From assembly GCA_001941075.1 (NCBI GenBank), contig MSHH01000073.1, positions 1-44,832 on the forward strand: a DNA stretch of 44,832 nucleotides. Reading direction: 5' to 3'. Below the pieces are notes generated by a model. It made no database searches and was not told the DNA's origin. It saw only the letters and a program-made list of their open reading frames with translations. The stretch comes from Oscillospiraceae bacterium Zagget6. Lineage in GTDB: Bacteria; Bacillota; Clostridia; Oscillospirales; Oscillospiraceae. Below, one piece after another: positions 8,891 through 29,327 of the stretch (positions within the stretch are counted from its first letter, which is position 1; each line of letters begins with the position of its first letter). Both the position numbers and the translations under genes were made by a program.

Positions 8891-8930
8891 AAAAGCCCCC
8901 TGATGCAGGTATTCTTCTACATCAGGGGGC
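8891..8930 (-). terminator. Terminator at the end of the polysaccharide/acid operon
   Basis: An 11-bp perfect stem (GCCCCCTGATG with CATCAGGGGGC) is followed on the minus strand by TTTT. It lies 48 bases after the stop codon of the fumarase-like alpha subunit and is the first strong terminator I see in about 20 kb of leftward genes. Confidence 0.88.
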
Positions 8931-8978: not shown

Positions 8979-9833
8979 TTACAATTCACAACTCGATATT
9001 CTTGGCTCAAAACAGCAGCACGGTCTCATACACACGATTCTCACTCCGCTGGCTCTCTGCGGTCCAACTTTCATAAACGTTGCAAGCACCGTCGTATCGC
9101 CGCCAAGACCAAGCGCACCCACATGGGACTCATTCACTCTGTTTGTGATTTCCTGCTCCATCTCCGACTGTTTCTCATATCTCCCATCGACGAGCGCCTG
9201 TAGCATCAAAGACGCGGCTTCATAATGTGAGCGGCCAACCCCGATTGCCAGCGTGCAGGGAGAACATCCAAGCTGCGCTGTGGATTCTACGGCCCACTCT
9301 ACGATCTGGTCCATGACCGGCTCAACCTTGTGCTTGTGGAAAACGCGATGCGTATGTGCCCTGATTGCGGGGCCTCCGCCAAACATAAGGATATGCACCC
9401 GAAGCACCTCTTCATCCGTGCTGCGAATCAAAATCGGCGCAGCATCCAGCATCCCTGAATCCTCGTACATCCCTTCCGACTGGGCGATCCGCTGCGCGTC
9501 ATTTCCTTTAACCGCCATTGGCCTGCCCGGGAGCGTTCTCAGCCCTTGCCGGATTCCTTCCCGGATGGATTCCAGCACAGTTCCGGTCACCGCCGCATTT
9601 GGTCCGGCCTCGACAACTACATGCGGAATACCTGTATCATCACAGAGCGGGCTGTGGTTTTTCTCCGCTACCTCTGCATTTTCAAGGACCGTTTCAAGTA
9701 CCCACCGCGCCTTGTCATCCGTTTCCTTCTGAATGGCTTTTTTGTATGCTTCTTTTTTATCCGGCGTAAAAGTGGAACCAGCTCGCACAAGCGCATCGCA
9801 GACCTTATCAACAATCTCCTGATTATAATTCAT
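8979..9833 (-). CDS. Class-I fumarase/tartrate dehydratase-type hydro-lyase, alpha subunit
   Basis: 284 aa Fe-S hydro-lyase alpha subunit (FumA N-terminal/TtdA family), which adds or removes water across a dicarboxylic acid using a 4Fe-4S cluster. Candidate cluster cysteines are in Pro-Leu-Cys-Asp-Asp-Thr-Gly, in Gly-Cys-Ser-Pro-Cys and in Arg-Pro-Cys-Cys-Cys near the C-terminus. The Gly-Leu-Gly-Gly segment near residue 255 is family-typical. The middle is divergent: where FumA/TtdA usually have a Gly-Gly-Gly-Ser-Glu stretch, this protein has a His-rich one (Ala-His-Thr-His-Arg-Val-Phe-His-Lys-His), so the substrate may not be fumarate or tartrate. Start at 9833 chosen for its AAGGAGG site; the ATG at 9863 lies in the end of the beta gene. 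It is the last gene of the operon. Confidence 0.85.
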   Translation of the reverse strand: MNYNQEIVDKVCDALVRAGSTFTPDKKEAYKKAIQKETDDKARWVLETVLENAEVAEKNHSPLCDDTGIPHVVVEAGPNAAVTGTVLESIREGIRQGLRTLPGRPMAVKGNDAQRIAQSEGMYEDSGMLDAAPILIRSTDEEVLRVHILMFGGGPAIRAHTHRVFHKHKVEPVMDQIVEWAVESTAQLGCSPCTLAIGVGRSHYEAASLMLQALVDGRYEKQSEMEQEITNRVNESHVGALGLGGDTTVLATFMKVGPQRASGVRIVCMRPCCCFEPRISSCEL

Positions 9834-9846
9834 CCGTGACGCCTCC

Positions 9847-10350
9847 TTAATAAATGCTCTCATTGTGTGCGGCTGCGATGATGGCAGGATAGTCTTTTAC
9901 CTTCAATTCATACAAGGCTTCCATACCAAGTTCAGGGAACGCCACAAGGCGCTGCTCCATCGTATTGTTCCCAAGCAGCGCCGTAACCGGCGGCATGACA
10001 GCGTAAACGGCATTCTGCTCATCCAACATCTGAATCGTGGCTTTCCCGATCTCACCCTTTCCGAGGTGGACCTTTACTCCGGCTTTGGAGAGCGTTTCAA
10101 AACTCCCTTCGATCTCAAGCTTGTTGCTGGACGTCGGACCGACTCCGGCAGGGCTTACAGCCGTGTGGAAAATCACGCTGCCCCGCAGATGAATATCCGT
10201 GTTTTCGATTTCTCCCGAATCAATTAGTTCACAAATTTTAGGCAAAACCGCATCTCTGCCACAATAGATAGAACCGGATATAAGAACTTGATCTCCAACC
10301 TGTAGATTTCTGACGTCCTCTTCACTGATCGGTGTTGTTAAAACCTTCAC
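9847..10350 (-). CDS. Class-I fumarase/tartrate dehydratase-type hydro-lyase, beta subunit
   Basis: About 167 aa. The swivelling-domain subunit (FumA C-terminal/TtdB family) pairs with the alpha subunit encoded 13 bases downstream. Family features include Val-Leu-Ile-Ser-Gly-Ser-Ile-Tyr-Cys-Gly-Arg-Asp near the N-terminus and the Pro-Ala-Gly-Val-Gly-Pro-Thr-Ser-Ser motif that binds substrate in this fold. I prefer GTG at 10350 because AGGAG lies 8 bases upstream; an in-frame GTG at 10359 is also possible. The stop of the upstream gene (TAG) overlaps this ribosome site, indicating translational coupling. Confidence 0.85.
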   Translation of the reverse strand: MKVLTTPISEEDVRNLQVGDQVLISGSIYCGRDAVLPKICELIDSGEIENTDIHLRGSVIFHTAVSPAGVGPTSSNKLEIEGSFETLSKAGVKVHLGKGEIGKATIQMLDEQNAVYAVMPPVTALLGNNTMEQRLVAFPELGMEALYELKVKDYPAIIAAAHNESIY

Positions 10351-10361
10351 TTCAGACACTC

Positions 10362-11501
10362 CTAACCCACCACGCCAAACAAATCCAGATAACTGGCATC
10401 ATTTTCGATCACACCATACGCTTGCGATCTTTGATAAATCTTCTCGGCCCATGCCTTATGAGGCCCGATCTCATTCATTCCTTTGGAACCCTTGATAACG
10501 CCGCCAGACGTGTGAAGGATTTGATAGGCGTCCTCATATTCTTCCTTCGTAACAGCGAGCATACCGTTTATATAGTTCAGATGCGTCGGATGAATACACG
10601 TCTTTCCCATGAACCCATTCGCCTGGTCGAGAATCAATTCCCTCATTAAGCCATCTACGGCTTCATTCACGATTGGACGTCTCTGGAGCAGCGTATCCTG
10701 TAAGCTGTAGCCTGGCAGCTTTTTAAACTTCATGGATTTATTTACACGGAAATACTCCCAAACAGGACCTGAAACCGTATACTCATTGTCTCTGGTAAAC
10801 ACATTCAGGATGTCCAACAGGCAGTCGCGCACCGTCATAATGTCGTAAATGGTATAATTGATGCCTCGTCTCACTCCGAAGCAGGATGAGAAATCGGTGC
10901 CGCCGGTACGGATATTCAGCACAAGATTTCTGTGCGCGTCAAGAATTTTCTTGATGCCAATCAGCTCTTGCAGCCTTGATTCCTTAAACGCAACGCTTCT
11001 GTCCTCAATGATGGGCATACCATAGAGGATTTCGCCAAACTTGTCGTTCAATTCTTCCAAATGCGCAAAATATGCTTCCCCATTCTCCGCGTTAAACTTC
11101 GGGAAATTGAATCCTGTAATCAGCTTGATTTGCTCCGGCTTGAGCATACTGCTAAAATGCTTGAACTGCTCTACCGTTCTAACGCGAAAGAAAATCAGTG
11201 GAAGATCCTCATATTTGAAGGTCCCATCGTCAAGGGCTGCGAGCAGTGCATCCATAAGCGCAATGCAGTTTACCTCTGCCGCCGGTACGTCCTCTTCCTT
11301 GCAAGCATCCTCAAAGCACATTACCATAGATGTCAGGCCAGCATATTTCTTATGAATAATTGCCTCCGCAAAATCCTTTGTCCCCGGCATGTACATGGTC
11401 GCCCCAAGGCAGTATTGAAGCAGACTTCGGTCAGTGTACTTGTTGAAGTCAATCGGCTCCTTTACAAACGCATAATCAGGATTATACTGATGGTGTCTCA
11501 T
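10362..11501 (-). CDS. HpcH/HpaI aldolase / citrate lyase beta-like C-C lyase
   Basis: 379 aa TIM-barrel protein of the citrate-lyase-beta/HpcH superfamily, which cleaves or forms C-C bonds in acyl-CoA or 2-oxo/hydroxy acid substrates with a divalent metal. Met-Cys-Phe-Glu-Asp-Ala fits a metal/substrate acidic site, Phe-Phe-Arg-Val-Arg the usual substrate Arg, and Gly-Lys-Thr-Cys-Ile-His-Pro the C-terminal loop typical of citrate lyase beta. It is longer than CitE (about 290 aa), closer to the uncharacterised C-C-lyase branch that often accompanies ATP-grasp enzymes. The start has a good GGAGGA site. It overlaps the ATP-grasp gene by 20 bases, a strong sign of joint function. The substrate is unknown. 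Confidence 0.75.
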   Translation of the reverse strand: MRHHQYNPDYAFVKEPIDFNKYTDRSLLQYCLGATMYMPGTKDFAEAIIHKKYAGLTSMVMCFEDACKEEDVPAAEVNCIALMDALLAALDDGTFKYEDLPLIFFRVRTVEQFKHFSSMLKPEQIKLITGFNFPKFNAENGEAYFAHLEELNDKFGEILYGMPIIEDRSVAFKESRLQELIGIKKILDAHRNLVLNIRTGGTDFSSCFGVRRGINYTIYDIMTVRDCLLDILNVFTRDNEYTVSGPVWEYFRVNKSMKFKKLPGYSLQDTLLQRRPIVNEAVDGLMRELILDQANGFMGKTCIHPTHLNYINGMLAVTKEEYEDAYQILHTSGGVIKGSKGMNEIGPHKAWAEKIYQRSQAYGVIENDASYLDLFGVVG

Positions 11502-12756
11502 CTATACGGTTCCTCCACATATCTCTGTTTAACATTTTATTTCCATGGTTATCCTTTATCTCAATACGGGAATACGCAATTTCGGCTCTCCGAAACAGGT
11601 CCTGGTAAGAATCCGCCTCGATCACGAACGCCCCCACACGATTACCGCTGCGCATATCGTCATCGATCACATCGCCCTTATTCTTCATAACAAACCAATT
11701 TTGAATCAGTGAATCAGCTTTGAGCTGCTCCAATCCCTCAATATGGTCAAACGTTCCCGGGTGCATATACAAAAGGTTCGTAGAATAGCATCGATCCTTC
11801 GGCTTTTTTACATCGTCCACCGGTTCGCCCAGGAAAGACTTGATTGCGGCTTCGATCGGGTCAAACCCCGTTACCAGCTTAATGAGATAATAGCTGAGTC
11901 CGCCGCCAATTCTTGGCGCAAACTCCAGCACCTGAATCCCCTCATTCGTTACGATTGCCTGATAAAAGAAAGGGGTATTCTTCAACTGAAACGCCTTTGC
12001 GATTTTGCGCGCAATATCACGGGCCTGAGCCGTCAGCTCAGGTGTGAGAGGCGCGGGGACGATAGAGCCGAAAGACTGCAACACCATTGTATTTTCGCCG
12101 GACGCTTTCTGTTTCTGCCTCGTCATGATAACATCTGCGTCATCCTCTGTGGCAAGACAATCGACCTGAATCTCAGCTCCGGCGTTAAATCCCTCGATGA
12201 TCGCGGCTTTTGTTCGGCTCAACTGAATTGCCTGCTTTAAATAATGGTATGCTTCCTCAGGACCATCCACTCGATGAACGCCCTTGGAACTGTTGCAATC
12301 TACAGGTTTCACGACGGCAGGGAACGGAACGTCTGCGCAGGCGTCCTCCTCAACATCCTCGCGCATGATTTGAAACCATGAAGTAGGGATTTGATTCTCA
12401 ACGAATATCCGCTTCATGCGCGCCTTATCCGTAACATCCAGGGACGTTTGGTAACTATATGGGTGAGGAAGGTCCAGTTTTTCGGCAACATAGCAGCAAG
12501 TACTATTCGCCTGGTCGATGCAGGTGCTGATGACCAAACCGGCTTTTTTCTCCCGTGCGATCCTTTCAACCGCTTCTAAATCCAAAGTGCTCTCCTGAAT
12601 ATGCTCATCTGCCACCGCAGCTCCCGGAGGATTCTTCAGATAATCGATCAGGCAAACATAGAATCCGCGTTCTTTCAGCTTCTCGATCAGGCGTACATGG
12701 GGGCTTGTCCCACCCAGCACAACAGCGACTGATTTATTTTTCCCTCTGTCTGTCAT
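11482..12756 (-). CDS. ATP-grasp carboxylate-amine/thiol ligase
   Basis: 424 aa. An N-terminal Rossmann-like pre-ATP-grasp domain (Val-Val-Leu-Gly-Gly-Thr-Ser) precedes the ATP-grasp fold. Visible are the nucleotide-binding Pro-Ala-Val-Val-Lys-Pro strand, the Ser-Ser-Lys-Gly-Val loop, the Ile-Ile-Glu-Gly-Phe hinge, and Glu-Phe-Ala-Pro-Arg-Ile-Gly-Gly-Gly near the metal site. Such enzymes activate a carboxylate as an acyl-phosphate and join it to an amine or thiol. Next to an aminotransferase and RmlB, an amino-sugar acceptor is plausible, but this is inference; an amino acid or a peptide is equally allowed by the family. Its start overlaps the stop of the U32-like gene (TAAATGA). Confidence 0.82.
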   Translation of the reverse strand: MTDRGKNKSVAVVLGGTSPHVRLIEKLKERGFYVCLIDYLKNPPGAAVADEHIQESTLDLEAVERIAREKKAGLVISTCIDQANSTCCYVAEKLDLPHPYSYQTSLDVTDKARMKRIFVENQIPTSWFQIMREDVEEDACADVPFPAVVKPVDCNSSKGVHRVDGPEEAYHYLKQAIQLSRTKAAIIEGFNAGAEIQVDCLATEDDADVIMTRQKQKASGENTMVLQSFGSIVPAPLTPELTAQARDIARKIAKAFQLKNTPFFYQAIVTNEGIQVLEFAPRIGGGLSYYLIKLVTGFDPIEAAIKSFLGEPVDDVKKPKDRCYSTNLLYMHPGTFDHIEGLEQLKADSLIQNWFVMKNKGDVIDDDMRSGNRVGAFVIEADSYQDLFRRAEIAYSRIEIKDNHGNKMLNRDMWRNRIDETPSV

Positions 12757-13646
12757 TTAATGGACCCTTTCGGCGACTGAATGGCTTCCGGATAATAGCA
12801 GTCGATCATACGCTTGACCAGGCTGACCTGTTTTGCCCGCTTTTTGGCGTCGCTCTCTGTGCTGTCCCAGCTATGAGTCGCAGCGACAGAGCCGCCAGTC
12901 TTTAAATAAATCGGAGCCGCAACGCGGATCATCTCCGGGACCTCATAATGGCGAATGAACCCACCTGTTGACTTCGGGTTTTCCGTGTGAATGTCGATTG
13001 GAATGTCGATTGCCTGCCGCATCGCCGCCAGCATCTGAAGCTGGATGTCCCGCACCGGATTGACAGAGTTCGCTCCCAGCATCTCCAACACGTGAGCCGA
13101 GCAGGGGTTGCCATGCCCCGCATGGGCGGAGACCTTGAAATGACAGTCCGCCGGAATCTCTCCGGCCTTTCTCATTTCACCGAGTGCCCACAGACAGCCC
13201 TCATCATAGACAAGGAACGTGCGGCAGCCCAAGGCCACAGCGCGTTTTACATCCTCGATTGCCCGAACGATCTGCTCCTGACCGCGGAGCCGGTATCCCA
13301 TGCGCACGCCTTCTTCCGTATGGACGGATGCGCTGGTATCCGTGGTCGCTCTCGGCCCAACCGCCAAAATCAGGTCGGTTTCCGCCGCCTTCGCAAGCTT
13401 CACCATTTCCATGATCTCGTTGTCTGTCAGCATCATGATGCCCTTGGTTTGGGTCACTCTATGCAGATAGATCCCGTATTTATCCATGGTTTCCAGCAGG
13501 ACCTCCATCACCTTTGGCCCCTGGATCCCCGGAACCTCAAAGCGATACTGGCCGCCATCCCTGAACCTTTTCTCAGAGGTAGGGAGCGTATACAAATCCC
13601 CCTCCGGCATACCGATGGACTTCAAAAAAGCTCTGGTTTCCTTCAT
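12753..13646 (-). CDS. U32-peptidase-like TIM-barrel protein of unknown function
   Basis: 297 aa, predicted TIM barrel. I recognise similarity to a branch annotated as U32 family peptidase: the N-terminal Leu-Pro-Thr-Ser-Glu-Lys-Arg-Phe, the central Gly-Gln-Glu-Gln-Ile-Val and the Arg-His-Tyr-Glu-Val-Pro-Glu-Met-Ile-Arg-Val-Ala segment are shared. Peptidase activity in this branch is unproven to my knowledge and an enolase- or aldolase-like reaction is possible. Start at 13646 is favoured by GGAGG 7-8 bases upstream; an ATG at 13661 overlaps the preceding stop (TAATG). It sits between MmgE/PrpD and ATP-grasp genes with overlapping ends. Confidence 0.6.
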   Translation of the reverse strand: MKETRAFLKSIGMPEGDLYTLPTSEKRFRDGGQYRFEVPGIQGPKVMEVLLETMDKYGIYLHRVTQTKGIMMLTDNEIMEMVKLAKAAETDLILAVGPRATTDTSASVHTEEGVRMGYRLRGQEQIVRAIEDVKRAVALGCRTFLVYDEGCLWALGEMRKAGEIPADCHFKVSAHAGHGNPCSAHVLEMLGANSVNPVRDIQLQMLAAMRQAIDIPIDIHTENPKSTGGFIRHYEVPEMIRVAAPIYLKTGGSVAATHSWDSTESDAKKRAKQVSLVKRMIDCYYPEAIQSPKGSIK

Positions 13647-13660
13647 GTTTTTTTCCTCCA

Positions 13661-14977
13661 TTAAATATGATAAAATAGATCCTCCACATTCATCTCATTC
13701 GATTCAAATGCAGCAAGGATTTTGTTTCCTGTCTCTTCCTTTCCAGCCCACATCATGAGCCGAAGGAACTTGTTCCTGATTTCTTCCTCTGTCATCGGAT
13801 TCTCAGGATCCCCTTTTGCGTAATCCACCCGTCTGACATATTCCTCGCCCTGGGCAAATATATGAACCTCAGATACGCGCTTTCCCGGAGAAAGCTCCGT
13901 AAATTCCTCACGGGCAGTCACAGACACTTTTTTTGTCAAATCCAAAATTTGCTTATCGCTCAGCTTTGCCTCTGAAAAAGCGTCTAACCCGCCATCCTGC
14001 GTGATATAAGCGGTCGCCACACTGAAAGGCATACTCAATTTGGCGGACTGCACGCCCTGTATGTCCGTGTGGTCATGTCCTCTTACCGCAAGCTCGTATG
14101 TATCTATTTCGATACGTTCGATCTCCTCCGGTGAAAGAGCGTACTCCTTCCGCAGCGCGATGGCCGCCTCCATGGAAGGATGACAATGGCGGCAGGCGGC
14201 ATAGGGCTTCACATAAATTCTCTCGATTTCCAAAAAATCAGTCTTTTCAAGCAACTTTTCCTGGGAAAAGGTAGCGGAGAGTTTCCGCAGCATCCCTCTG
14301 GCGCCCCCCAGCATGTCATCCGGCGGCGTGGGCGCCATCCGCCCGACTCTTGACGCCATGACCGCAGACATCGCCGCATGGCCCAGATTGTAGGGTTTCA
14401 TCTGTGAGGAATCCTCCTGGATTTCCAACAGTCCCGCCGCGCTTGTCGCTGCTCCGGAAATCGTGCTTTTCAGTTGTTCCCTGTTGTAATGGAGCATAAA
14501 AGCGATTCCAACCGCCGCCCCAACGGTCCCGCATGTGCCGGATGTATGAAATCCATGCTTCTTATGGCCCGGCTGCATTGCAAATCCACAGCGTACCGCC
14601 GCTTCGTACCCGATCACGATTCCGCGGAGCATATCCTCCGCAGTGCAGTCCCATTCCTGTCCCGCTGCCAGGATCGCTGAAACGATGGATGCGCCAAGGT
14701 GGATCGCGCCAAACCTGTGCCCGTCGTCCAACTCGACCGTATGGGCATTGTAGGCATTCACAAAAGCGGCTGTGAGTGCATCCGTTTTTCGCGTGGTTCC
14801 GAAAACAGTACACCTGCCGCCGCAGAGGTCCATGCCAAGATCGCCGTTCTCTTTCGCCCCGGCATAGACAACGCCAAGATAATCCAGCAGACACTCTTTT
14901 GCCTTTTTTCGATGCTTGCTTTCTATCCGCGCTTCACAGTCAAATAAGTAGTCGATGAATGCGTCTGTTATGTTCAC
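13661..14977 (-). CDS. MmgE/PrpD family protein (dehydratase/epimerase fold)
   Basis: 438 aa. The all-helical N-terminal domain and C-terminal alpha/beta domain of the MmgE/PrpD family are recognisable from Leu-Asp-Asp-Gly-His-Arg-Phe-Gly-Ala-Ile-His-Leu-Gly-Ala, the Gly-Phe-His-Thr-Ser-Gly-Thr-Cys-Gly-Thr-Val-Gly-Ala motif and Lys-Pro-Tyr-Ala-Ala-Cys-Arg-His. Known members are 2-methylcitrate dehydratase, cis-aconitate decarboxylase and iminodisuccinate epimerase, so it acts on a small di- or tricarboxylate. It starts with GTG, overlapping the preceding dehydrogenase stop (GTGA). Which carboxylate it uses cannot be told from sequence. Confidence 0.88.
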   Translation of the reverse strand: MNITDAFIDYLFDCEARIESKHRKKAKECLLDYLGVVYAGAKENGDLGMDLCGGRCTVFGTTRKTDALTAAFVNAYNAHTVELDDGHRFGAIHLGASIVSAILAAGQEWDCTAEDMLRGIVIGYEAAVRCGFAMQPGHKKHGFHTSGTCGTVGAAVGIAFMLHYNREQLKSTISGAATSAAGLLEIQEDSSQMKPYNLGHAAMSAVMASRVGRMAPTPPDDMLGGARGMLRKLSATFSQEKLLEKTDFLEIERIYVKPYAACRHCHPSMEAAIALRKEYALSPEEIERIEIDTYELAVRGHDHTDIQGVQSAKLSMPFSVATAYITQDGGLDAFSEAKLSDKQILDLTKKVSVTAREEFTELSPGKRVSEVHIFAQGEEYVRRVDYAKGDPENPMTEEEIRNKFLRLMMWAGKEETGNKILAAFESNEMNVEDLFYHI

Positions 14978-15954
14978 TTCTGTTCACCGATCCGCAGTCG
15001 ATACGGTTCGATCTCCTGCAGCCTTCCCTCATCAAATAACTTGATATTTCTCATCGCATCGTGCATCATTTGATAAAATGCGTCATAGGTCACCCCGGCA
15101 ATGTGAGGCGTTGTGATCACATTGGGCAATGTCGTCAGCTCCGAACGGTTCAGCGGCTCATGCTCATATACATCCAGCGCCGCAAATCCGACCTTTCCCG
15201 TATGAATGGCTTGAATCAGGTCCTCTTCACAAATCAGCTGGCCCCTTGCAGTGTTGACCAAAATGACGCCGTTCACCATCCCGCTCAAAGCCCGCTCATT
15301 GATGATATGTCTTGTCTCATCTGTCAGCGCACAATGCAGCGTAAGGATCTCCGCATTTGCAAACAGCTCCGGCAGCTCGACATACCGAAGCGCGAGAGCG
15401 CGTTCCGTGGCGGCGTCAGCGCGATACTGGTCGTAATACATCACCTCAGCGCCAAACGGAACAAGCAGTTTCGCCACCGCCCGGCCAATATGCCCCATTC
15501 CGATGATGCCAACCTTCCGCCCGCGCAGCGTATGGGTGCGCGTTCCCTGTATCTGCTTCTTCCAGACGCCTTGTTTCGTTTCCGCATCAATAATCGTTAA
15601 TCGGCGCAGTCCGGCCAGCATAAGCAAGACCGTATGCTCCGCCACGCTATTTGCGTTCACGCCCTGATTTACGTATAATGGGATACTTCGCGCTTTGATC
15701 CCGTTCAGATCCAGTGAGTCCAAGCCTACGCCGGTTCTTTGAATCATTTTCAGGTTTTCCGCCCGAGACAGAAGCGCATCATTAATTTTTAGTCTGCCGC
15801 TTACAAGAAGGTAATCTGCCAAATTCGCTTTTCCGAGCAAATCTTCCTGTGTAACCTGATCTAACATCACAAGTCTGAACCCGTCAGGAACCACAGACTG
15901 AATAATTTCAAGGGGCGTATCCGAATACCTGTTCGTCAGTAAGATTGTTTTCAT
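14974..15954 (-). CDS. D-isomer-specific 2-hydroxyacid dehydrogenase
   Basis: 326 aa NAD(P)-dependent dehydrogenase interconverting a 2-oxo acid and a D-2-hydroxy acid. The Rossmann motif Gly-Ile-Ile-Gly-Met-Gly-His-Ile-Gly-Arg is near residue 150. The catalytic triad is present: Arg in Asn-Thr-Ala-Arg-Gly, Glu in Asp-Val-Tyr-Glu-His-Glu-Pro, and His in Thr-Pro-His-Ile-Ala-Gly. Length and layout fit PGDH/glyoxylate-reductase-like members without an ACT domain. It lies directly after the DegT aminotransferase (41-base gap) and before MmgE/PrpD, linking amino-sugar and acid genes. Confidence 0.9.
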   Translation of the reverse strand: MKTILLTNRYSDTPLEIIQSVVPDGFRLVMLDQVTQEDLLGKANLADYLLVSGRLKINDALLSRAENLKMIQRTGVGLDSLDLNGIKARSIPLYVNQGVNANSVAEHTVLLMLAGLRRLTIIDAETKQGVWKKQIQGTRTHTLRGRKVGIIGMGHIGRAVAKLLVPFGAEVMYYDQYRADAATERALALRYVELPELFANAEILTLHCALTDETRHIINERALSGMVNGVILVNTARGQLICEEDLIQAIHTGKVGFAALDVYEHEPLNRSELTTLPNVITTPHIAGVTYDAFYQMMHDAMRNIKLFDEGRLQEIEPYRLRIGEQK

Positions 15955-15995
15955 GTAAAGTCACCCGTTTTGTATGTGGAACTGATCTGAACTTG

Positions 15996-17105
15996 TCACC
16001 GTTTGCATGACAAAACGATGTCGCAGATTCTATCTACCTCTTCCATTGAAAGATCCGAATACAATGGCAATGTCAGCACGCGCCTGCTTATGGAAAGCGC
16101 AACAGGGGTCAGCTGCACATCGTAACGGCCATGAAAGCACTCAAAGGTATTCGTCAACGGATAGAAATACTTTCTCGCTCCGATTTTTTCCGCAGCCAGC
16201 GCCTCGAACACGTCGTTTCTTGTCGCGCCAAACTTTTTCTCATCAAACACGACTGGGAAATAAGCGTAGTTCGGTTCCACGTCCGGCTGTTCCGGATTCA
16301 GCTGTATGCCATCAACACCGCTCAGCCGCTCACGATACCGCTCCGTTACCCGCTTTCTCTTCACAAGCTCCTCATCCAAGTGGCGAAGATTGCAAATCCC
16401 CATAGCGGCGCAAAATTCATTCATTTTGGCGTTTGCCCCAACGCCATCGACGACCTCCGGTCCTCGGATGCCAAAATTCTTCAGGCGGGCGATGGATTCC
16501 CCAACTTCCTTGTCCTTGTAACAAACGGCGCCGCCTTCAATGCTGTTAAATACCTTCGTCGCGTGAAAGCTATAACAGGCGACGTCCCCGTAGCTCCCCA
16601 TGCTGCGGCCTTTATACCTTACACCGAAGGTATGAGCCGCGTCATAAATGACCTTTAACCCATATTTATTTGCAATGCGCTGGATTTCCTCCACATTGCA
16701 AACATTTCCGTACACGTGGACAGGTAGGATCGCAGAGGTTTTATCAGTGATCAAGCTCTCGATTTTCGATACATCCATCGTGTAATCATCGGCGTTGATG
16801 TCACAAAATACCGGCGTGCAGCCATTGCGAACAATCGCATGGGTCGTTGACGCAAACGTAAAAGGCGTCGTAATGACCTCGCCTTTCACCTCCAGGGCCT
16901 GAATGGACAACTCCAATGCCATATGTCCGTTCGTCAAAAGATCGATATTGTCAACCGACAAGTACTCGCGGAGCATTTCCCGGAATTTCTCATGCTTGAC
17001 CCCCATATTCGTCAGCCAATGAGACTCCCACATGGGCTTGATTTCTTCTACATATTCTTCAATGCTCGGCATTGAGGAACGTGTCACCAAAATTTTATTT
17101 TTCAT
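15996..17105 (-). CDS. DegT/DnrJ/EryC1/StrS sugar aminotransferase
   Basis: 369 aa PLP enzyme. The Schiff-base Lys184 is in Phe-His-Ala-Thr-Lys-Val-Phe-Asn, and Asp155 (Tyr-Asp-Ala-Ala-His) binds the pyridine nitrogen. Family members transaminate a nucleotide-linked keto-sugar with glutamate. With RmlB in the same operon the likely substrate is dTDP-4-keto-6-deoxyglucose or its 3-keto isomer. No isomerase is seen, which favours the 4-amino product; this is inference. Start at 17105 is chosen for GGAAGGA at good spacing; an ATG at 17123 would add six residues. Confidence 0.9.
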   Translation of the reverse strand: MKNKILVTRSSMPSIEEYVEEIKPMWESHWLTNMGVKHEKFREMLREYLSVDNIDLLTNGHMALELSIQALEVKGEVITTPFTFASTTHAIVRNGCTPVFCDINADDYTMDVSKIESLITDKTSAILPVHVYGNVCNVEEIQRIANKYGLKVIYDAAHTFGVRYKGRSMGSYGDVACYSFHATKVFNSIEGGAVCYKDKEVGESIARLKNFGIRGPEVVDGVGANAKMNEFCAAMGICNLRHLDEELVKRKRVTERYRERLSGVDGIQLNPEQPDVEPNYAYFPVVFDEKKFGATRNDVFEALAAEKIGARKYFYPLTNTFECFHGRYDVQLTPVALSISRRVLTLPLYSDLSMEEVDRICDIVLSCKR

Positions 17106-17185
17106 AACAAAAATTCCTTCCATAGGTTGCGTATAACGTTCGTTTTCAAACGGATATTTCCGCAGCAGGCGCCAGCATAATCGTC

Positions 17186-18409
17186 TTATTTCTTAGAAAT
17201 GACCTCCGTTTTAGGCAATATATACGCTAAAAACAGTACAATATAAAACCCGTAGCTCCATAACTCTCCCACAATACCTGCCAACAAAAAAGCGCCTAAA
17301 ACGGTTCCCAGCAGAATTGTTATCGGATTCTTCTTCAGCCGAATGATACTGACGCATGACAATACGTACATCACACAGGTTGACGCAAATCCAAATATGC
17401 CATTTTTATAAAAAACATCCAAAAGCGCATTATGCGCATGGCTGGCGAAAAAGTATTTTCCCACGTTCAATCCTGTGTGTTCCAGGGTTTGGATTCCCGT
17501 TCCCCACAGCGGCGATTTCAAAATCCCTTTCACTGCCGCATCCCATATATAGATACGACTGGTAAAGGTTAAATCTTTTCCCAGGATCGTTGTCACAAAA
17601 TAAGAAACAAACATAAAGTTTCTGGCTAGCACGACCGTGATGCTGACGAACAGAAAAATAATGATTATTTTTTTCAGATCCAAAATCGTGTTCTTAAAGA
17701 ATATCTGCCAAAAATTCAAGCCCAGGATCATCAGGCATAAGACGACCGAAGTCGTTGACTCTGCCAAAATAAGAGAGAATAAGCTCAGAACGGAGACCAA
17801 AACAGTGCTGACTGTAATTGCTTTGTTCCTGTTAATGCGATCATTCAGGAACGCGAGCAAAATCGTTGGAAAAATAATGTTGCGCATCGCATTTTTCTGG
17901 CCGAACAGCCAATAATCTCCCGCGCTCCGAAATCCATGACGCGAATAAAGCGCTAATAATACAATCAGATTGAGTGCAAATGCAACTAAAAAAAGGACAT
18001 ATAACGTTTGAATCCCGGCTTTTGGTTTTCTTCTGACCAAATCCGCCACAACCACATAAGCCGTCAATAAAATGCAGCATCGCAAGATAGCCGTTGACAT
18101 ATCCCCATCACTGATTCTGGTTGTAAGCCACTGAACTGCACATAAAACGACAACGCTAATCGTCATCAAATCGAGATGCTTTATGGATATTCTTTTCTGA
18201 AGCAGAAATTTCAAAAAATACAAAAGGATAATAAACAGACAAACAAATTTTTGCGCATTTCTGAACATTGTCAGAATGACGCCAAAGCTTGTATAGGTAA
18301 GTCCTTCTGGCGTGAAGAAAGGAATGCTGAACAAAACGATCAATATCTCTGTCAGATTTATTTTCCGGCCAGAAGCGTCCTCCCCTCTGTGTATATATAA
18401 ACTTATCAT
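17186..18409 (-). CDS. O-antigen ligase-like polysaccharide polymerase (Wzy-type)
   Basis: 407 aa, about ten to twelve hydrophobic helices. The large extracellular loop near residues 265-315 has Ser-Arg-Ile-Tyr-Ile-Trp, then Ser-Pro-Leu-Trp-Gly-Thr-Gly and Ala-His-Asn-Ala-Leu-Leu, which are the O-antigen ligase/Wzy (Wzy_C) signature. It would polymerise lipid-linked repeat units on the outer face of the membrane. Neighbouring genes are the flippase upstream and aminotransferase downstream, the normal Wzx/Wzy set. GGGAAG precedes the start. Confidence 0.85.
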   Translation of the reverse strand: MISLYIHRGEDASGRKINLTEILIVLFSIPFFTPEGLTYTSFGVILTMFRNAQKFVCLFIILLYFLKFLLQKRISIKHLDLMTISVVVLCAVQWLTTRISDGDMSTAILRCCILLTAYVVVADLVRRKPKAGIQTLYVLFLVAFALNLIVLLALYSRHGFRSAGDYWLFGQKNAMRNIIFPTILLAFLNDRINRNKAITVSTVLVSVLSLFSLILAESTTSVVLCLMILGLNFWQIFFKNTILDLKKIIIIFLFVSITVVLARNFMFVSYFVTTILGKDLTFTSRIYIWDAAVKGILKSPLWGTGIQTLEHTGLNVGKYFFASHAHNALLDVFYKNGIFGFASTCVMYVLSCVSIIRLKKNPITILLGTVLGAFLLAGIVGELWSYGFYIVLFLAYILPKTEVISKK

Positions 18410-18468: not shown

Positions 18469-19923
18469 TTATTTAGTCCCCTTTTTAAACTTTTGCAGAT
18501 ATGGCTTCAAAATACCAAGCAAATACGTAAATCCTTCTAACTTCAACAAATAAGAGCCAGCTGTATAAATGATCACTCCTGCCATCACCTGTAGGATGAG
18601 GATCAGCCAAAGCGAGAGATTGAGATAGGAAATCAGATAAACACACACGCCCATAAACAGCGCCAGGAAAACGCTTGGCATAATATCCTTCAGCTGCTCA
18701 AGGTATCCATACTTTAAGAGCGTTCTGTTTGGCCACGAGTTGATGATCTGACTGGTAACACTGCTGATAAGAAGACTATATGCCATGGCCATCACGCCGA
18801 AATTCATGCTGACCAACAGAAGAACCATTCCAACTGCTTTCTTTGCAATTTCCAATTTTAAATAAAGATCGCTGCGTCCCATCGCTTTGATCGCGTTCAA
18901 ATTTGCCGTATGAATCGGATAAAACATATACGTAATGCAGAAAATCCTCAAATAAGGCACACACTCGTTCCATTTCTCCGTCAGCAAAAGCGTGACGAGC
19001 GGTCTTGCTGTCGCAGCCAATCCCATCATCAGGGGCGCCATGATATAGGTGCTGACCTTGATCGACAGCCGGGTCATATTGCAAACCTTTTCCCGCTTAT
19101 CCTGCACATTGGACATCACAGGGAAAAGTACGCTGTCGATTGATGTGTTAATATTTGTCACAATCAGATGTGGAAACTGCTTTCCGCGATTGTAATATGC
19201 CAGATCGGAAGCCGAATACAGCTTTCCAATAATCAGTTGTCTCAGGTCTGAATAAATCGTATTGAGCAAACTGGCGGCCAACAGTTTCCAGCCATAGGAA
19301 AACAGCTTCTTTAAGCGCTGGAAGGAGAACATTCTTTTCGGGCGCCAGGGTACGGTGATCCACAAAACCAGCGTGTCAACGGCGGCATTGAATACCTGCT
19401 GAACGACCAACGCCCAAACGCCAAATCCGAAATACGCCAATGCAATGCCAATTATGGCTGCGCCAATGGTGCCCGCCAACGTGGAGAAAAAGAATTTTTT
19501 AAACATCAGATGACGGGAAACATACGCCTGCTGAACGTTTTTGATACCAGATATAACCAGCGTCAGGCTGAGGACCCTTACGACAGGCGTCAGTTCAGGC
19601 ATCTCATAAAAAGCTGCAATAAACGGCGCCGCCAGGAACATGATAAGATACAGGCAAAGGCAAAGGACAATATTGAAGTAGAAAATGGTGGAGAAATCTA
19701 AATCATCAGCATCTTTCTTTTGAATCAGAGCATTTCCGATCCCATTGTCAATAAAAACCTGCAAAATCGTCGTAAATACTGTGACAAGTGCAACTGTTCC
19801 GTAGACATCCGGCGCCAGCAGTCTTGCCAGCACAATGGACACCACGAAAGAAACTCCTTGTGCCCCACAGCGCTCCGCAAATCTCCATACTAAATTTGAC
19901 AGGGTTTGCTTTTTTGTATCCAT
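18469..19923 (-). CDS. Polysaccharide flippase (Wzx-type, MOP superfamily)
   Basis: 484 aa with about 14 predicted membrane helices. The N-terminus (Arg-Phe-Ala-Glu-Arg-Cys-Gly-Ala-Gln-Gly, then Ala-Arg-Leu-Leu-Ala-Pro-Asp-Val-Tyr-Gly-Thr-Val-Ala) is typical of the lipopolysaccharide/teichuronic-acid exporter branch of the MOP family. It would move the lipid-linked repeat across the membrane. TTAGGAG lies upstream at slightly long spacing. Genomic partner of the polymerase at 17186-18409. Confidence 0.88.
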   Translation of the reverse strand: MDTKKQTLSNLVWRFAERCGAQGVSFVVSIVLARLLAPDVYGTVALVTVFTTILQVFIDNGIGNALIQKKDADDLDFSTIFYFNIVLCLCLYLIMFLAAPFIAAFYEMPELTPVVRVLSLTLVISGIKNVQQAYVSRHLMFKKFFFSTLAGTIGAAIIGIALAYFGFGVWALVVQQVFNAAVDTLVLWITVPWRPKRMFSFQRLKKLFSYGWKLLAASLLNTIYSDLRQLIIGKLYSASDLAYYNRGKQFPHLIVTNINTSIDSVLFPVMSNVQDKREKVCNMTRLSIKVSTYIMAPLMMGLAATARPLVTLLLTEKWNECVPYLRIFCITYMFYPIHTANLNAIKAMGRSDLYLKLEIAKKAVGMVLLLVSMNFGVMAMAYSLLISSVTSQIINSWPNRTLLKYGYLEQLKDIMPSVFLALFMGVCVYLISYLNLSLWLILILQVMAGVIIYTAGSYLLKLEGFTYLLGILKPYLQKFKKGTK

Positions 19924-19978: not shown

Positions 19979-21202
19979 TCAGCTTTTCTTGAAGGTTGAA
20001 AGCAGTTTATAACACTTTGCCGCCATTAAGTCTCTCTTTGTCATGGAGGTTCGTGTGGCAGCTCTGTCCTGTGAAAAAACATATTCCGGGTCATATTTTT
20101 TCCTTGAAAGAGCTACCCTCTGTACTTCCAGTGAATGTTCTACATATTCATCGTCATTCATCAATATAACATTTTCTATATAGGAATCGATTGGCTTCCC
20201 CGGTTGATCGTCCAGGCTTCTATTGGCGTGATCCTTATAAAACCCATACGTTTCACAATGATAGTCATAATGCCTCACGACCAGGGATGGCACACCACAC
20301 CTGGCTCCATCCGCCAGAGAACCTGCGACGCCGACGTTTAAATGCGCTTTTTGAAACTCCAGCAAAAACTGATCGTAGGGCAGCATCCCCTTTTGTACAA
20401 TATCACGTTTTGCTTCTTCGTCCAGCGACTGTATTTTTTGATCGACTTCCTCTGCGCCATCCCCATACCCAACGATAACGAGACGCAATTCAGGAAACTT
20501 GCTTTTCAAACGCGCATAAGCATCTATCAGCCCCAAAATATAACCCTTGTGAGGAAACTCAAACCTTGCGCCCGTAATGATCGTAAAACACGTTTTCCGT
20601 TCCTGCGCTTTTTTGAAAAGCACCTCACGGTTTAATTTAGGCGTAGGCTTAATGCGCGGAAAAACGCAGGACTTTTTATCCTGAAGCGGTACGGAGTAAT
20701 AGTCCTCATAGGCGTCCAGGTGCTTCAACGCAAACGCATAGAGCGATCCCTCTTTCTCCCATGCAGATACCCATTTCTGAATCTTGTTAAACCAATACTT
20801 TTTCAGCCATTTTGTTTGAAACAAACGATCCGGATAGCAATTAATGCCCGTAAAATTAGGCAGTACCAGCAAATGTTGAAACGGATTTGCAGGAAATTTC
20901 ATTCTCAAACATTCGCTTAACGCATAGTCTATTGGCGCGCACGAAAGCATAACTGCACTCTCATCTTCAGACAAATGAATCGCAGGCGCGGAAAACAATT
21001 TATTCCATTTACTCCAATAACATTTTTCTATCCTGGAATCACTGAGAATTTCTTGAAAGGATGCCGCTTCATAGTCCTTTTCTGTCGTTATCCATATGAC
21101 CCTATGATCATTTTCCATCGCGTATTGCATTAGGTAAGCAAAAACCACCTCGATGCCGCCTGGTCTCATATTGCTGTAATCAATAATTAAAACCTGATTC
21201 AT
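19979..21202 (-). CDS. Glycosyltransferase (GT-B fold, family 4-like)
   Basis: 407 aa. The N-terminal Rossmann domain carries a Gly-Gly-Ile-Glu-Val-Val loop, and the C-terminal domain contains Thr-Gly-Ala-Arg-Phe-Glu-Phe-Pro-His-Lys-Gly and Val-Ala-Gly-Ser-Leu-Ala-Asp-Gly-Ala-Arg-Cys-Gly-Val-Pro-Ser-Leu near the nucleotide site. The usual E-x7-E motif is not obvious, so it is a divergent member. Retaining transfer of a sugar onto the growing repeat is expected; donor and acceptor are not predictable. The ribosome site is weak. Confidence 0.75.
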   Translation of the reverse strand: MNQVLIIDYSNMRPGGIEVVFAYLMQYAMENDHRVIWITTEKDYEAASFQEILSDSRIEKCYWSKWNKLFSAPAIHLSEDESAVMLSCAPIDYALSECLRMKFPANPFQHLLVLPNFTGINCYPDRLFQTKWLKKYWFNKIQKWVSAWEKEGSLYAFALKHLDAYEDYYSVPLQDKKSCVFPRIKPTPKLNREVLFKKAQERKTCFTIITGARFEFPHKGYILGLIDAYARLKSKFPELRLVIVGYGDGAEEVDQKIQSLDEEAKRDIVQKGMLPYDQFLLEFQKAHLNVGVAGSLADGARCGVPSLVVRHYDYHCETYGFYKDHANRSLDDQPGKPIDSYIENVILMNDDEYVEHSLEVQRVALSRKKYDPEYVFSQDRAATRTSMTKRDLMAAKCYKLLSTFKKS

Positions 21203-21302
21203 TTTTTAGAACACCGCCCAATACTTATATTGTCAGCTTCTTCCTTTGCGTGTGTATTTGCAACCAAATCAATACAGCGATCCTTCTTTATCTCCATCAG
21301 CT

Positions 21303-22322
21303 TTATCTGTTTTTATACATCTTCTCATAATAATTCCTGTACTCGCCTGAGATGATCACTTCCCACCACTCACGGTTGTCGAGATACCACTGGATCGTTT
21401 TCTTAATGCCATCCTCGAACTTTGTTTCCGGCAGCCAGCCCAGCTCATTATAAATTTTAGTGGGATCAATCGCGTAACGCATATCATGCCCTTTGCGGTC
21501 AGTGACGTGGGTAATGAGGCTCTCCGGCTTGCCAAGCTCACGGCAGATGATCTTCACGATGTCGATATTCTTCATCTCGTTGTGACCGCCAACATTGTAG
21601 ACCTCGCCGACTCTGCCCTTATGAATGATCAGGTCAATGGCGCGGCAATGATCCTCTACATAGAGCCAGTCACGAACGTTGAGCCCTTCGCCGTAAACCG
21701 GAAGCGGCTTGTCGTTCAGCGCATTCGCAATCATGAGCGGAATCAGCTTCTCCGGGAAGTGATACGGACCATAGTTATTGGAGCAACGGCTAATGCTTAC
21801 CGGCAGGCCATAGGTCCTGTGGTAGGCAAGGACAAGCAGGTCAGCACTTGCTTTGCTCGCACTATAAGGGCTGCTCGTGTGAATTGGCGTCTCCTCGGTA
21901 AAGAACAAATCAGGTCTGTCAAGCGGCAAATCGCCGTAAACTTCATCGGTAGAAACCTGGTGGTAACGGGTGATGCCGTACTTCCGGCAAGCGTCCATAA
22001 GCACACTGGTGCCGATGATATTGGTTTGCAGGAAAATTCCCGGGTCTTCGATGGAACGGTCAACGTGGCTCTCCGCCGCAAAGTTGACAACAATGTCAGG
22101 ATGTTCTTCCTCAAAGAGCTTGTAAACCGCTTCCCTGTCGCAAATGTCCGCTTTCACGAATCTGAAATTGGGGTTGTCCATTACAGGTGCAAGGGTGGAC
22201 AAATTCCCCGCATATGTCAGTTTATCCAGGCAGATAATGCGGTAGTCGGGATAGGTATCAAGCATATGGAACACAAAGTTGCTTCCAATGAATCCGGCGC
22301 CGCCGGTCACTATTATTGTCAT
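21303..22322 (-). CDS. rfbB: dTDP-glucose 4,6-dehydratase
   Basis: 339 aa extended SDR enzyme that turns dTDP-glucose into dTDP-4-keto-6-deoxyglucose. It has the NAD motif Thr-Gly-Gly-Ala-Gly-Phe-Ile-Gly (6-13), the dehydratase triad Thr125-Asp126-Glu127, and Tyr153-xxx-Lys157. Length and motifs are those of RmlB/RfbB. RmlA, RmlC and RmlD are absent from the window, so dTDP-glucose must come from elsewhere and the product need not be rhamnose. With the DegT aminotransferase a dTDP-amino-deoxy sugar is likely. GAGGGG precedes the start. Confidence 0.96.
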
Positions 22323-22377
22323 ATCTGTTATTCCCCTCTAACGATTACGGAAAACGTTTTATGGCTTCCCTGTATCC

Positions 22378-23553
22378 TTACTCTTTCATCTGTGCCGCAA
22401 TATCTGCATCCACGATTTCTTCTCCAGTCCTATTCTTCAGCTGCTCCTTCGACGCATCGCTCAAACCGTCGTTCACAACCGCTGTTAAATCACAGGTGCT
22501 GCACCGATCCAGTTGCTCCTTCGTAACCTTACCGTCCCGATAATCACAGCAGATCTTATTCTCGTACATCGAGTACGGATGCTTGGTGAACAGCGCCTTT
22601 GCCTTGTGCTTCACGACCCACCACGCCGGTTTCCAAATATACTTATGCATCGCCGGGGAAACCGAGCCGATCATCCAGCACTGGCGATCACAGCAGCGCA
22701 CCTTCTTGCGGACTTCTTCCGCTTCCGGGCTGTTCCACAGCTCGTCCCAGGTCTGCGTATTCAGATTTCCCATCACTTCCTTGTCCTTTGTGCCATTGCA
22801 GGGCATAACATCCCCATAAGGATCAATGAAGAATGTATCAAAGCTCATGTCACAGGGCAGAAGTCTCGGTTGTCCATAGATATAGTTGATAAGGCCGTGG
22901 TTGAAGTAGGCTCTGAACCATTTCTTCGGGCTGTTTGACCGGAGCAGTTCATTCACCAGATCCTCAAAGTTTTTTGCCACCATCGGGCGGTCATGGATGA
23001 TGTTCTTCGCTTCAACAAAGTAAAAGCTGTTGTGCAAAGACGCTGTGGCAAATTCCATCCCCATCTCATCCGAGATTTTATAGAGCGGAACAAGGTCAGG
23101 CGCATTCTTATCCTGAACCGTCATACCAAAGCCAACGTCCTTAATGCCCATCTCTACGAGTTTCTTGAGGGTGCCATAGCCGCGCTGGTATCCATTCTGA
23201 AGGCCGCGAATCTCGTTGTTGGTCTGCTCCAGACCTTCAATGGAAATGCGGATGCCGACATCCGGGAACTCTTTGCACAGGGCAACAATACGGTCTGTGA
23301 AGAAACCATTGGTGGATATGACAATACGGTCGCTCTTCTTCCGCAGTTCCGCGACGATCTCTCTTATGTCAGTGCGGATGAACGGCTCGCCGCCGGTGAT
23401 GTTGGTGAAATACATCGGAGGCAGCTTTCTGATCGTCTCAATGCTGATTTCCTCCTCCGGCTTGGAGGGAGCCTTATATCTGTTGCACATCGAACAACGG
23501 GCGTTGCACCTGTATGTAACAATGACGGTTCCGTTTAACTTTTTCTCTGCCAT
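22378..23553 (-). CDS. Radical SAM protein with SPASM-like domain
   Basis: 391 aa. The 4Fe-4S/SAM motif is Cys16-xxx-Cys20-xx-Cys23, followed by the Gly-Gly-Glu-Pro SAM-binding loop in Thr-Gly-Gly-Glu-Pro. A C-terminal Cys-rich part begins at Met-Pro-Cys-Asn-Gly and includes Arg-Cys-Cys-Asp-Arg-Gln-Cys, Cys-Cys and a final Cys-Ser-Thr-Cys, like the auxiliary-cluster SPASM region. Related proteins modify peptides or sugars or carry out epimerisation. Inside this polysaccharide operon a sugar or lipid-carrier modification is more likely than peptide maturation because no precursor peptide is visible. AAAGGAG precedes the start. Confidence 0.85.
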   Translation of the reverse strand: MAEKKLNGTVIVTYRCNARCSMCNRYKAPSKPEEEISIETIRKLPPMYFTNITGGEPFIRTDIREIVAELRKKSDRIVISTNGFFTDRIVALCKEFPDVGIRISIEGLEQTNNEIRGLQNGYQRGYGTLKKLVEMGIKDVGFGMTVQDKNAPDLVPLYKISDEMGMEFATASLHNSFYFVEAKNIIHDRPMVAKNFEDLVNELLRSNSPKKWFRAYFNHGLINYIYGQPRLLPCDMSFDTFFIDPYGDVMPCNGTKDKEVMGNLNTQTWDELWNSPEAEEVRKKVRCCDRQCWMIGSVSPAMHKYIWKPAWWVVKHKAKALFTKHPYSMYENKICCDYRDGKVTKEQLDRCSTCDLTAVVNDGLSDASKEQLKNRTGEEIVDADIAAQMKE

Positions 23554-23559
23554 GATCTT

Positions 23560-24810: not shown

Positions 24811-24839
24811 TCTCTTCCATCCTTATGTCAGCGTTATGG

Positions 24840-26081: not shown

Positions 26082-27139
26082 ACGTTGTTGTCTCCTGTCA
26101 TATAAAACTCTTTGTACCACTCAGCAAACTTCCTCAAGCCATCCCTGAGACTTGTGCTCGGCTTATACCCGAAGTCCCTCTCCAGAGCGGAAGTATCGGC
26201 ATAAGTCACAGGTACATCCCCTGGCTGCATCGGAACCAGCTCCTTGTGGCTCTCGAAATCATAGTCTGCATCCAGGACCCCAGCACGAATCAACTCCTGC
26301 TGAAGAATATCTACAAAGTCCAGAAGATTCTCCGGGCTGTTGTTTCCTATATTATAAAGCGCATATGGCGGGACCGGCAGACCGTCCTCACCTGTGGCTC
26401 TGTCCGGTGCTTTCTGCATCACCCGAATAACACCCTCAACAATGTCATCCACATATGTGAAGTCACGCTTACAATTCCCATAGTTAAAGATTTGAATTTT
26501 CTTCCCTGCCCGCAGCTTATCTGTAAATCCAAAGTAGGCCATGTCCGGTCTTCCCGCCGGTCCATAAACCGTGAAGAAACGCAAGCCTGTGGACGGGATG
26601 TCATATAGCTTGGAATAGGCGTGGGCCATCAGCTCATTGCTCTTCTTCGTTGCAGCATAAAGGCTGACCGGATGATCTACCTTGTCATCTGTGCTATATG
26701 GAACCTTCTTATTACTCCCATAAACACTGGATGAAGAAGCATAAACCAAATGCTCCACAGGATACTTTCGACATGCCTCCAGAACGTTAAAAAAGCCGAT
26801 CAAGTTCGATTCCACATACGCATCAGGATTGGTGATGGAATATCTCACACCAGCCTGTGCTGCAAGGTTTACAACTACCTGCGGTTTGTATCGCTCAAAT
26901 ACTGATGCGATCAGCGCCTTGTCAGCAATGTTGCCTTTCCTAAAGTGAAATGCAGAATACTCGGTCAGCTTCGCAAGTCTATATTCCTTGATTGACACGT
27001 CATAGTAATCATTCATATTGTCGATTCCTATGACCTTCACACCTTCTATTTCATTTAACAATCGTTCCGACAGGAATGCCCCAATGAATCCTGCGGCGCC
27101 AGTCACGAGGACTGTTTTGTTTCTCAAATCGACCTTCAT
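26078..27139 (-). CDS. UDP-glucuronate 4-epimerase-like NAD-dependent epimerase
   Basis: 353 aa extended SDR. The NAD motif is Thr-Gly-Ala-Ala-Gly-Phe-Ile-Gly. Asn-Asp-Tyr-Tyr-Asp after the second strand, Ala-Ala-Gln-Ala-Gly-Val-Arg-Tyr-Ser and the catalytic Tyr-xxx-Lys (Tyr-Ala-Ala-Thr-Lys-Lys) are typical of UDP-GlcA 4-epimerases (LspL/CapI). Product UDP-GalA would give the polymer acidic residues. It overlaps the dehydrogenase gene by four bases. Confidence 0.92.
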
Positions 27140-27159
27140 TTCATTTGCTCCAATCTATG

Positions 27160-29305: not shown

Positions 29306-29327
29306 AAAAACTCTCCCTTGTGATTGC

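Follow-up and report, generated by a model that had tools for sequence, protein, structure and literature searches.

Small hydroxy acids occur on bacterial polysaccharides: R-malic (amide-linked), R-2-hydroxyglutaric and D-malyl residues have been reported, and in a Shewanella polymer the sugar Qui4N is N-acylated (PMC3210612). Amide formation by an ATP-grasp enzyme has been described for the capsule of Campylobacter jejuni, where an amidoligase amidates glucuronic acid with serinol phosphate or ethanolamine phosphate (PMC11800379). In branched C5-dicarboxylate metabolism, class I fumarases turn mesaconate into citramalate, and the substrates of MmgE/PrpD family enzymes have a common four-carbon-dicarboxylate core (PMC12290011); each of these three accounts is cited for the available part of its text. 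Here, we describe eight genes in a 44,832-nucleotide stretch of DNA from Oscillospiraceae bacterium Zagget6 (assembly GCA_001941075.1, contig MSHH01000073.1), referred to in its entirety as the window, in which families of these kinds stand together at the end of a polysaccharide operon.

We lean slightly towards the reading that this module makes an acid that becomes amide-linked to a dTDP-4-amino sugar for a surface polysaccharide. The acid itself is probably an (R)-2-hydroxy (di)carboxylic acid. The eight genes seem to represent one form of a module that has spread horizontally and whose parts gut bacteria appear to exchange. No description of the eight-gene set was found in the literature searched, in agreement with an earlier prediction made from the window alone (the original prediction), which knew of no pathway with this set.

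The eight genes and their operon

On the minus strand, the polysaccharide operon extends from about 29.8 kb down to 8.9 kb and reads as a single long run of about 21 kb, ending in the eight genes in the order DegT, HADH (2-hydroxyacid dehydrogenase), PrpD, TIM, ATP-grasp, lyase, FumB and FumA. All eight reading frames lie on that strand and mostly overlap, and seven of them match named families above Pfam cut-offs. A gap of 62 bases separates Wzy from DegT and one of 41 bases DegT from HADH; further on, HADH and PrpD overlap by 4 bases, PrpD and TIM by 1, TIM and ATP-grasp by 4 and ATP-grasp and lyase by 20, with a gap of 2 bases before FumB and an overlap of 17 between FumB and FumA. The original prediction had described these genes as lying on one strand with short overlaps or gaps and as continuing from a Wzx/Wzy cluster with RmlB. 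Reading frames and spacing bear out the first point, and RmlB, Wzx and Wzy_C do indeed precede the eight on the same strand.

The single strong terminator that had been proposed for the end of the module is also present: a minus-strand hairpin at 8886-8935 has a fold energy of -29.2 kcal/mol (z = -7.5, 200 shuffles) with TTTT directly after it, and the intrinsic terminator that ends the operon is placed at 8895..8930. At the far end lies a candidate operon promoter, TTGACA-17-TACAAT, at 29838..29866 on the minus strand, identified by consensus match only (11 of 12 positions). A separate promoter and terminator at 15954-17105, named beforehand as grounds for giving up the idea, did not come to light: no promoter-like site was found on the minus strand over 15954-17123, and the only terminator-like site there is a weak one of five pairs at 16281-16265, within DegT. 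Four weak promoter-like sites (9/12) lie within later genes, at 14776, 12820, 10262 and 9313.

On the sugar side, RmlB (dTDP-glucose 4,6-dehydratase; 21303..22322, on the minus strand like all the operon genes given here) scores 506.3 bits against TIGR01181, for which the cut-off is 365.1. It is accompanied by a Wzx-type flippase (18469..19923; PF13440), a Wzy_C polymerase/ligase-like protein (17186..18409; PF04932) and the DegT/DnrJ-type, DesI-like aminotransferase (15996..17123; PF01041, 326.5 bits), the start of which could be at 17123 or at 17105. The best solved structure for DegT is 2po3 (listed as a '4-dehydrase'; 207 bits, the next structure reaching 171), which we take to be DesI, the maker of a dTDP-4-amino sugar. 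From its sequence, DegT is predicted to serve in dTDP-4-amino-4,6-dideoxyglucose synthesis.

The remaining genes are considered below as a shared front end (TIM, FumA, FumB), the ATP-grasp ligase and what we term back end II (HADH, PrpD, lyase). HADH (14974..15954) is D-isomer-specific and matches PF02826 and PF00389 above cut-off, and the MmgE/PrpD family enzyme (13661..14977) matches PF03972 and PF19305, the N- and C-terminal domains of its family, likewise above cut-off. The nearest solved structure to PrpD is iminodisuccinate epimerase. By spacing only, as no reference sequence was used, H79, E82, H93 and K257 fit the published His88, Glu91, His102 and Lys266, a shift of one residue brings H144 and K194 into line with His152 and Lys202, and no residue fits Tyr148. 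The ATP-grasp ligase (11482..12756), with an L-amino-acid-ligase C-terminal domain, scores above cut-off for GARS_A, ATP-grasp_4 and LAL_C2 and has 4dim and 3vot as solved relatives. The C-C bond lyase (10362..11501), of CitE/CLYBL type, had been called HpcH/CitE-like; its Pfam family is in fact PF15617, and it is the structure model that places it closest to the CitE/CLYBL/malyl-CoA-lyase branch, to whose fold it is predicted to belong. The class-I-fumarase-like beta subunit FumB (9847..10359) matches PF05683 with 89.1 bits and the alpha subunit FumA (8979..9863) matches PF05681 with 181 bits and TIGR00722 with 122 bits (cut-off 100.65). Cysteines of the solved fumarate hydratase 7xky line up with C74, C200 and C278 of FumA, which are presumably cluster-binding.

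The U32-like TIM barrel (12753..13661) is modelled by AlphaFold2 with a pLDDT of 84.7 and retrieves TIM barrels in fold searches; no function was found for its family. The protein scores 12.8 bits against the Pfam U32 cut-off of 22.4, which two of its relatives pass, one 44% identical on a Thermomicrobium roseum plasmid (23.0 bits; locus L158) and one 34% identical on an Enterobacter chuandaensis plasmid (25.3 bits; locus L159). The first has mandelate-racemase-family and sugar ABC transporter genes in its vicinity. The second belongs to a biosynthetic-looking operon with phosphotransferase, D-2-hydroxyacid dehydrogenase family, aminotransferase, iron-containing redox enzyme, major facilitator superfamily and nucleotidyltransferase genes. 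A third relative (37%; locus L109) adjoins genes read by eye as PanB-, FolD-, FTCD- and glutamate-dehydrogenase-like.

Relatives, back ends and polysaccharide genes

A scan of GTDB contigs returned 253 TIM relatives, of which the best 80 (82-95% identity) were analysed as loci; some of the contigs are short, and phyla were taken from the titles of records that are mostly metagenome bins. The labels comprise Bacillota, Bacteroidota, Fibrobacterota, Lentisphaerota, Spirochaetota and Kiritimatiellota, any one of which may be wrong. Within the window's family, TIM was found in 6 of 150 genomes, the window's own included, and a class-level search (E <= 0.01) gave matches in 18 of 391, again counting the window's own, seven of them weak and partial at 16-31 bits. 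Such a patchy spread fits horizontal transfer. The other acid genes recur with TIM: PrpD is present in 70/80 loci, the lyase in 75/80, FumB in 72/80 and FumA in 71/80. Homologues of all eight genes, always on one strand, occur in ten of the 80 (Bacillota 7, Fibrobacterota 2, Bacteroidota 1), and eight of these ten have a Wzx match; some members of the full sets are weak, with DegT only 23-25% identical in L065 and L079 and HADH 33% in L011.

The module comes in two forms. A phosphonopyruvate-decarboxylase-like protein (Ppd) is found in 57/80 loci and an aldo-keto reductase (AKR) in 53/80, the gene order PrpD-AKR-Ppd-TIM-lyase-FumB-FumA being recurrent. HADH is found in 18/80, of which 17 lack Ppd, as does the window, and one (L027) has both; six loci have neither. 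In two pairs of loci, L077/L079 and L054/L056, the surrounding genes are alike and the back end is different. Quick trees, each with the window added, were made from 80/80 rows for TIM, 71 for FumA, 72 for FumB, 72 for the lyase and 74 for PrpD, short or stop-containing rows being omitted. The minimum number of label switches is 13 for TIM, 10 for FumA and 9 for FumB, against 1 for the lyase (support 100) and 3 for PrpD, where label II includes five rows with no HADH match that carry it solely for their ATP-grasp gene. A clade test rejects a single type II group for TIM (p-AU 2e-7) and FumA (1e-5), the two trees on which it was run. Many switches in the first three genes and few in the other two point to a shared front end with two back ends, and suggest that TIM, FumA and FumB form the former whilst the lyase and PrpD go with either HADH or Ppd/AKR.

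The presence of Ppd raises the question of phosphonates. The 2-oxo acid common to both forms might be phosphonopyruvate, or a 3-substituted pyruvate resembling it, formed with no phosphoenolpyruvate (PEP) mutase and with TIM as its non-homologous replacement, so that phosphonolactate (in the window) or hydroxyethylphosphonate (in the relatives) would end up on the polymer. The decarboxylase at L112:8520-9647, the only relative scored, reaches 389.8 bits against a phosphonopyruvate decarboxylase cut-off of 312.5 in a genome with no PEP mutase match; PEP mutase is above cut-off in only 2/21 genomes, both among the 13 of Ppd type (17 of the 21 have no completeness figure), and gave no match in the window's 76%-complete genome. 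This scheme, however, leaves the fumarase-like, PrpD and CitE-type enzymes without a job, the catabolic-looking relatives described below have citrate-lyase or tricarboxylate-type transporter genes, and the U32-like barrel is only generically TIM-like when set against PEP-mutase-family folds. We regard it as very unlikely. Its furthest extension, that TIM replaces PEP mutase (or that another new route to a 3-substituted pyruvate exists) and that gut bacteria put phosphonolactate or hydroxyethylphosphonate on surface polysaccharides through two back ends and no known phosphonate-forming gene, is a long shot that we rate lower still. Proteins scoring as phosphonopyruvate decarboxylase in gut genomes lacking PEP mutase may instead belong to the pathway proposed here.

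The acid genes are associated with polysaccharide genes. Polysaccharide-type genes were counted with 33 query proteins in the 49 of 80 loci that are wide (at least 8 kb upstream and at least 6 kb downstream), matches of a query to its own locus being removed. Of 34 control stretches fetched, from 10 host genomes and unmatched for position, 29 were used: L122, L123 and L132 were short, L154 and L155 are from a contig that carries a relative's own module, and L152 and L153, which share a contig with the L107 module, were kept and gave no match. At least two (other) polysaccharide-type genes were found in 34/49 wide loci against 1/29 controls, a difference into which some enrichment is built even after own-locus removal since the queries were drawn from the window and 11 of the tested loci; with window-derived queries only, the figures are 23/49 and 0/29. 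Nearly all the matches (146 of 148) are on the TIM strand.

The association differs between the two forms. Wide HADH-type loci have ATP-grasp in 10/10 cases, DegT in 8/10, Wzx in 8/10 and RmlB in 1/10, whereas wide Ppd-type loci have ATP-grasp in 13/35 and Wzx in 3/35 (Fisher p = 6e-5 and 4e-4, respectively, with three ATP-grasp-defined loci added to the ten; the loci are related and the p values are rough). The expectation that the acid genes always travel with RmlB/DegT and Wzx/Wzy fails for the module as a whole and for RmlB; for DegT and Wzx it nearly holds among the wide HADH-type loci. RmlB is often not seen in the relatives' stretches and is matched in 3 of the 13 wide loci that have HADH or ATP-grasp and lack Ppd; this, together with the predominance of the Ppd back end among the relatives, means that the acid genes are not bound to RmlB/DegT in the manner originally stated. 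What survives of that interpretation is the recurrence of the eight genes, the link of the HADH type to ATP-grasp, DegT and Wzx, and the DesI-like character of DegT.

These counts also bear on a different role for the ligase, in which it would amidate a uronic acid of the chain with an amine, the acid genes feeding the amine precursor or something unrelated. The capsule ATP-grasp precedent for this is established (PMC11800379, available part), and a UDP-glucose-dehydrogenase-like gene is present in the window operon (24840-26120). UDP-glucose dehydrogenase, however, is matched in 1/10 wide HADH-type loci against 8/10 for DegT, the known enzyme is a TupA-like ATP-grasp fused to a GT2 domain whereas the window protein stands alone with LAL_C2, and the 2-hydroxyacid dehydrogenase and dicarboxylate-type enzymes are left with no role. 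We consider uronic acid amidation rather unlikely.

A possible pathway and its difficulties

CitE/CLYBL-type lyases form or cleave a bond beside a 2-oxo acid, and the HADH and Ppd families both act on 2-oxo acids. Together with the family chemistry of fumarase-, PrpD- and CitE-type enzymes, this makes a pathway meeting at one 2-oxo acid the simplest story, and from it we infer the identity of the acid, its attachment to the amino sugar, the substrates, and the order and direction of the steps. RmlB and the DesI-like DegT would, as their families support, yield a dTDP-4-amino-4,6-dideoxyhexose. The front end (TIM with FumA/FumB) and the back end (lyase and PrpD) would have branched C4-C6 di- or tricarboxylates as substrates and converge on the 2-oxo acid. 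From this, the D-specific HADH of the window would produce an (R)-2-hydroxy acid; the Ppd-like decarboxylase and the aldo-keto reductase of most relatives would act on the 2-oxo acid instead. The ATP-grasp enzyme would then join a carboxyl group of the acid to the amino group of the sugar, and Wzx and Wzy would export and polymerise the unit.

A number of observations tell against an acid-decorated amino sugar, amongst them the built-in enrichment and the five rows labelled by ATP-grasp noted above. The DesI equivalog model TIGR04427 is the top NCBIfam model for DegT but, at 295.4 bits, the protein falls below its cut-off of 650. RmlA gave two weak matches below cut-off, and none above, in the 76%-complete genome of the window. 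The lyase misses the citE (19.7 bits vs 443.4) and RipC (23.9 vs 375) equivalogs; most characterised CitE/CLYBL relatives use coenzyme A (CoA) or acyl carrier protein thioesters, and there is no CoA-transferase or CoA ligase among the eight genes. FumA and FumB miss the fumarate hydratase and tartrate dehydratase equivalogs as well as the beta subfamily model (NF004885, 120.6 vs 276; NF006084, 65.7 vs 365; TIGR00723, 85.1 vs 145.15). Five of the 35 wide Ppd-type loci (L068, L080, L033, L087 and L088) have no polysaccharide match at all. The module is not characteristic of the window's genus, as TIM is absent from both of the other genomes searched there.

More distant relatives add to these difficulties. 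In L106, L107 and L108, TIM (50-53%) adjoins fumarase-family and PrpD genes; in L106 (53%), it is followed by fumarase-family, malic enzyme, PrpD, Ldh_2 dehydrogenase and TctCBA-like transporter genes, 'malic enzyme' and 'TctCBA' being assignments by eye. L116 (TIM 74%) has CitD and CitF above cut-off and a CitE-like subunit below, then TIM, FumB and FumA, with a glycerol-dehydrogenase-like gene, PrpD and a GlcD-like oxidase downstream of FumA; L114 (to the end of its contig) and L117 begin in the same way, by eye. No polysaccharide match was obtained in L106-L109, L114, L116 or L117, and L113 has one, on the opposite strand. Enzymes of 2-oxo and 2-hydroxy acids thus recur beside TIM, and the finding that the original prediction regarded as fatal, the acid genes as a catabolic operon with no polysaccharide genes, does exist amongst these more distant, catabolic-looking relatives. 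That distant kin (TIM 50-75%) belong to operons that look catabolic and include citrate-lyase or transporter genes indicates that the acid chemistry is probably older than its link to polysaccharides. The tree bearing on this point is hand-rooted on L109, does not include L113 and has 41 of 84 inner branches unsupported.

It might be argued from such relatives that the window's acid genes are themselves an organic-acid catabolic operon that merely happens to lie behind a polysaccharide cluster. The neighbours in L106 (malic enzyme-, Ldh_2- and TctCBA-like) and L116 (CitD, CitF) speak for this, as do LysR and DctM-type permease genes upstream in some close relatives. Against it, the polysaccharide-type genes of most wide close-relative loci are nearly all on the same strand as the acid genes, DctM is matched in 0/10 wide HADH-type loci, and several of the DctM loci themselves adjoin polysaccharide genes, for example L085 (NeuB, NeuC, NeuA, Wzx) and L060. 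Flanking genes in loci such as L085, L106 and L116 were named by eye wherever no family match supports the name. A purely catabolic role in the window is, we think, unlikely. In L042, L044 and L055, PrpD is immediately preceded by the DctM-type permease gene and by one for a small membrane protein (about 100 residues), and a LysR gene also lies upstream.

Surrounding genes and comparison with known systems

The rest of the operon apart from RmlB (19979..29338, minus strand) encodes glycosyltransferases, a radical SAM/SPASM protein, the UDP-glucose-dehydrogenase-like protein, an epimerase and acyltransferase fragments. An Acyltransferase_3 domain at 27160-28169 is divided over two overlapping reading frames, reflecting either a frame break or an assembly error. 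The gene that comes right after the terminator (6189-8810) encodes an EF-G/ribosome-protection-like protein that carries a YacP-like NYN domain at its C terminus.

An integrative element of about 13.8 kb lies immediately upstream of this operon. It is bounded by a 103-base direct repeat (95% alike; 30203-30305 and 44013-44115) that spans the 3' end of a tRNA-Thr gene, and between the repeats are an integrase gene (42747-43931) and genes for a DnaB-like helicase, an HTH_36 protein and a sigma factor. Within the window's genome assembly, an exact 20-base piece of the direct repeat is confined to these two places. A 40-base stretch from the 3' part of the integrase gene is repeated (93%) immediately to the left of the inner repeat, at 30043-30082, which suggests that part of another integrase has been left behind on the polysaccharide side; the short frame there was not recognised as integrase by Pfam.

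How, then, does the module compare with described systems? Ter operons contain biosynthetic genes that include an ATP-grasp and a C-C bond lyase, and the window shares with them the Pfam families PF15617 and, more weakly, PF15632; the partners are different, however, and no TerC/TerD-type family was found among the 30 window proteins scanned. The TIM barrel resembles U32 peptidase-like barrels in fold and, weakly, in sequence, and two of its relatives are annotated as 'U32 family peptidase', but the window protein is a single 302-residue barrel below the Pfam cut-off.

The other three comparisons rest on the available parts of the sources. The C. jejuni HS:2 enzyme Cj1438 (PMC11800379) is, like the window ligase, an ATP-grasp enzyme of a polysaccharide locus, and it forms an amide, as is predicted for the window protein; Cj1438, however, couples an amine with a uronic acid and has a glycosyltransferase fused to it, whereas the window enzyme is separate, carries LAL_C2 and lies among acid-metabolising genes. 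The branched C5-dicarboxylate network (itaconate/methylsuccinate cluster, mesaconase and citramalyl-CoA lyase; PMC12290011) shares the MmgE/PrpD, class I fumarase and CitE-type families, but the window's eight genes include no CoA transferase, itaconyl-CoA hydratase or acyl-CoA dehydrogenase and add the TIM barrel, the dehydrogenase and the polysaccharide setting. Finally, the N-acylated amino sugars of O-polysaccharides (PMC3210612) likewise combine an amino sugar, such as RmlB and DegT would make, with a small hydroxy acid. Those are polymer structures with no gene set attached and here there are linked genes alone, so that the module offers a testable gene set for acid-decorated amino sugars known so far, in that account, from polymer structures.

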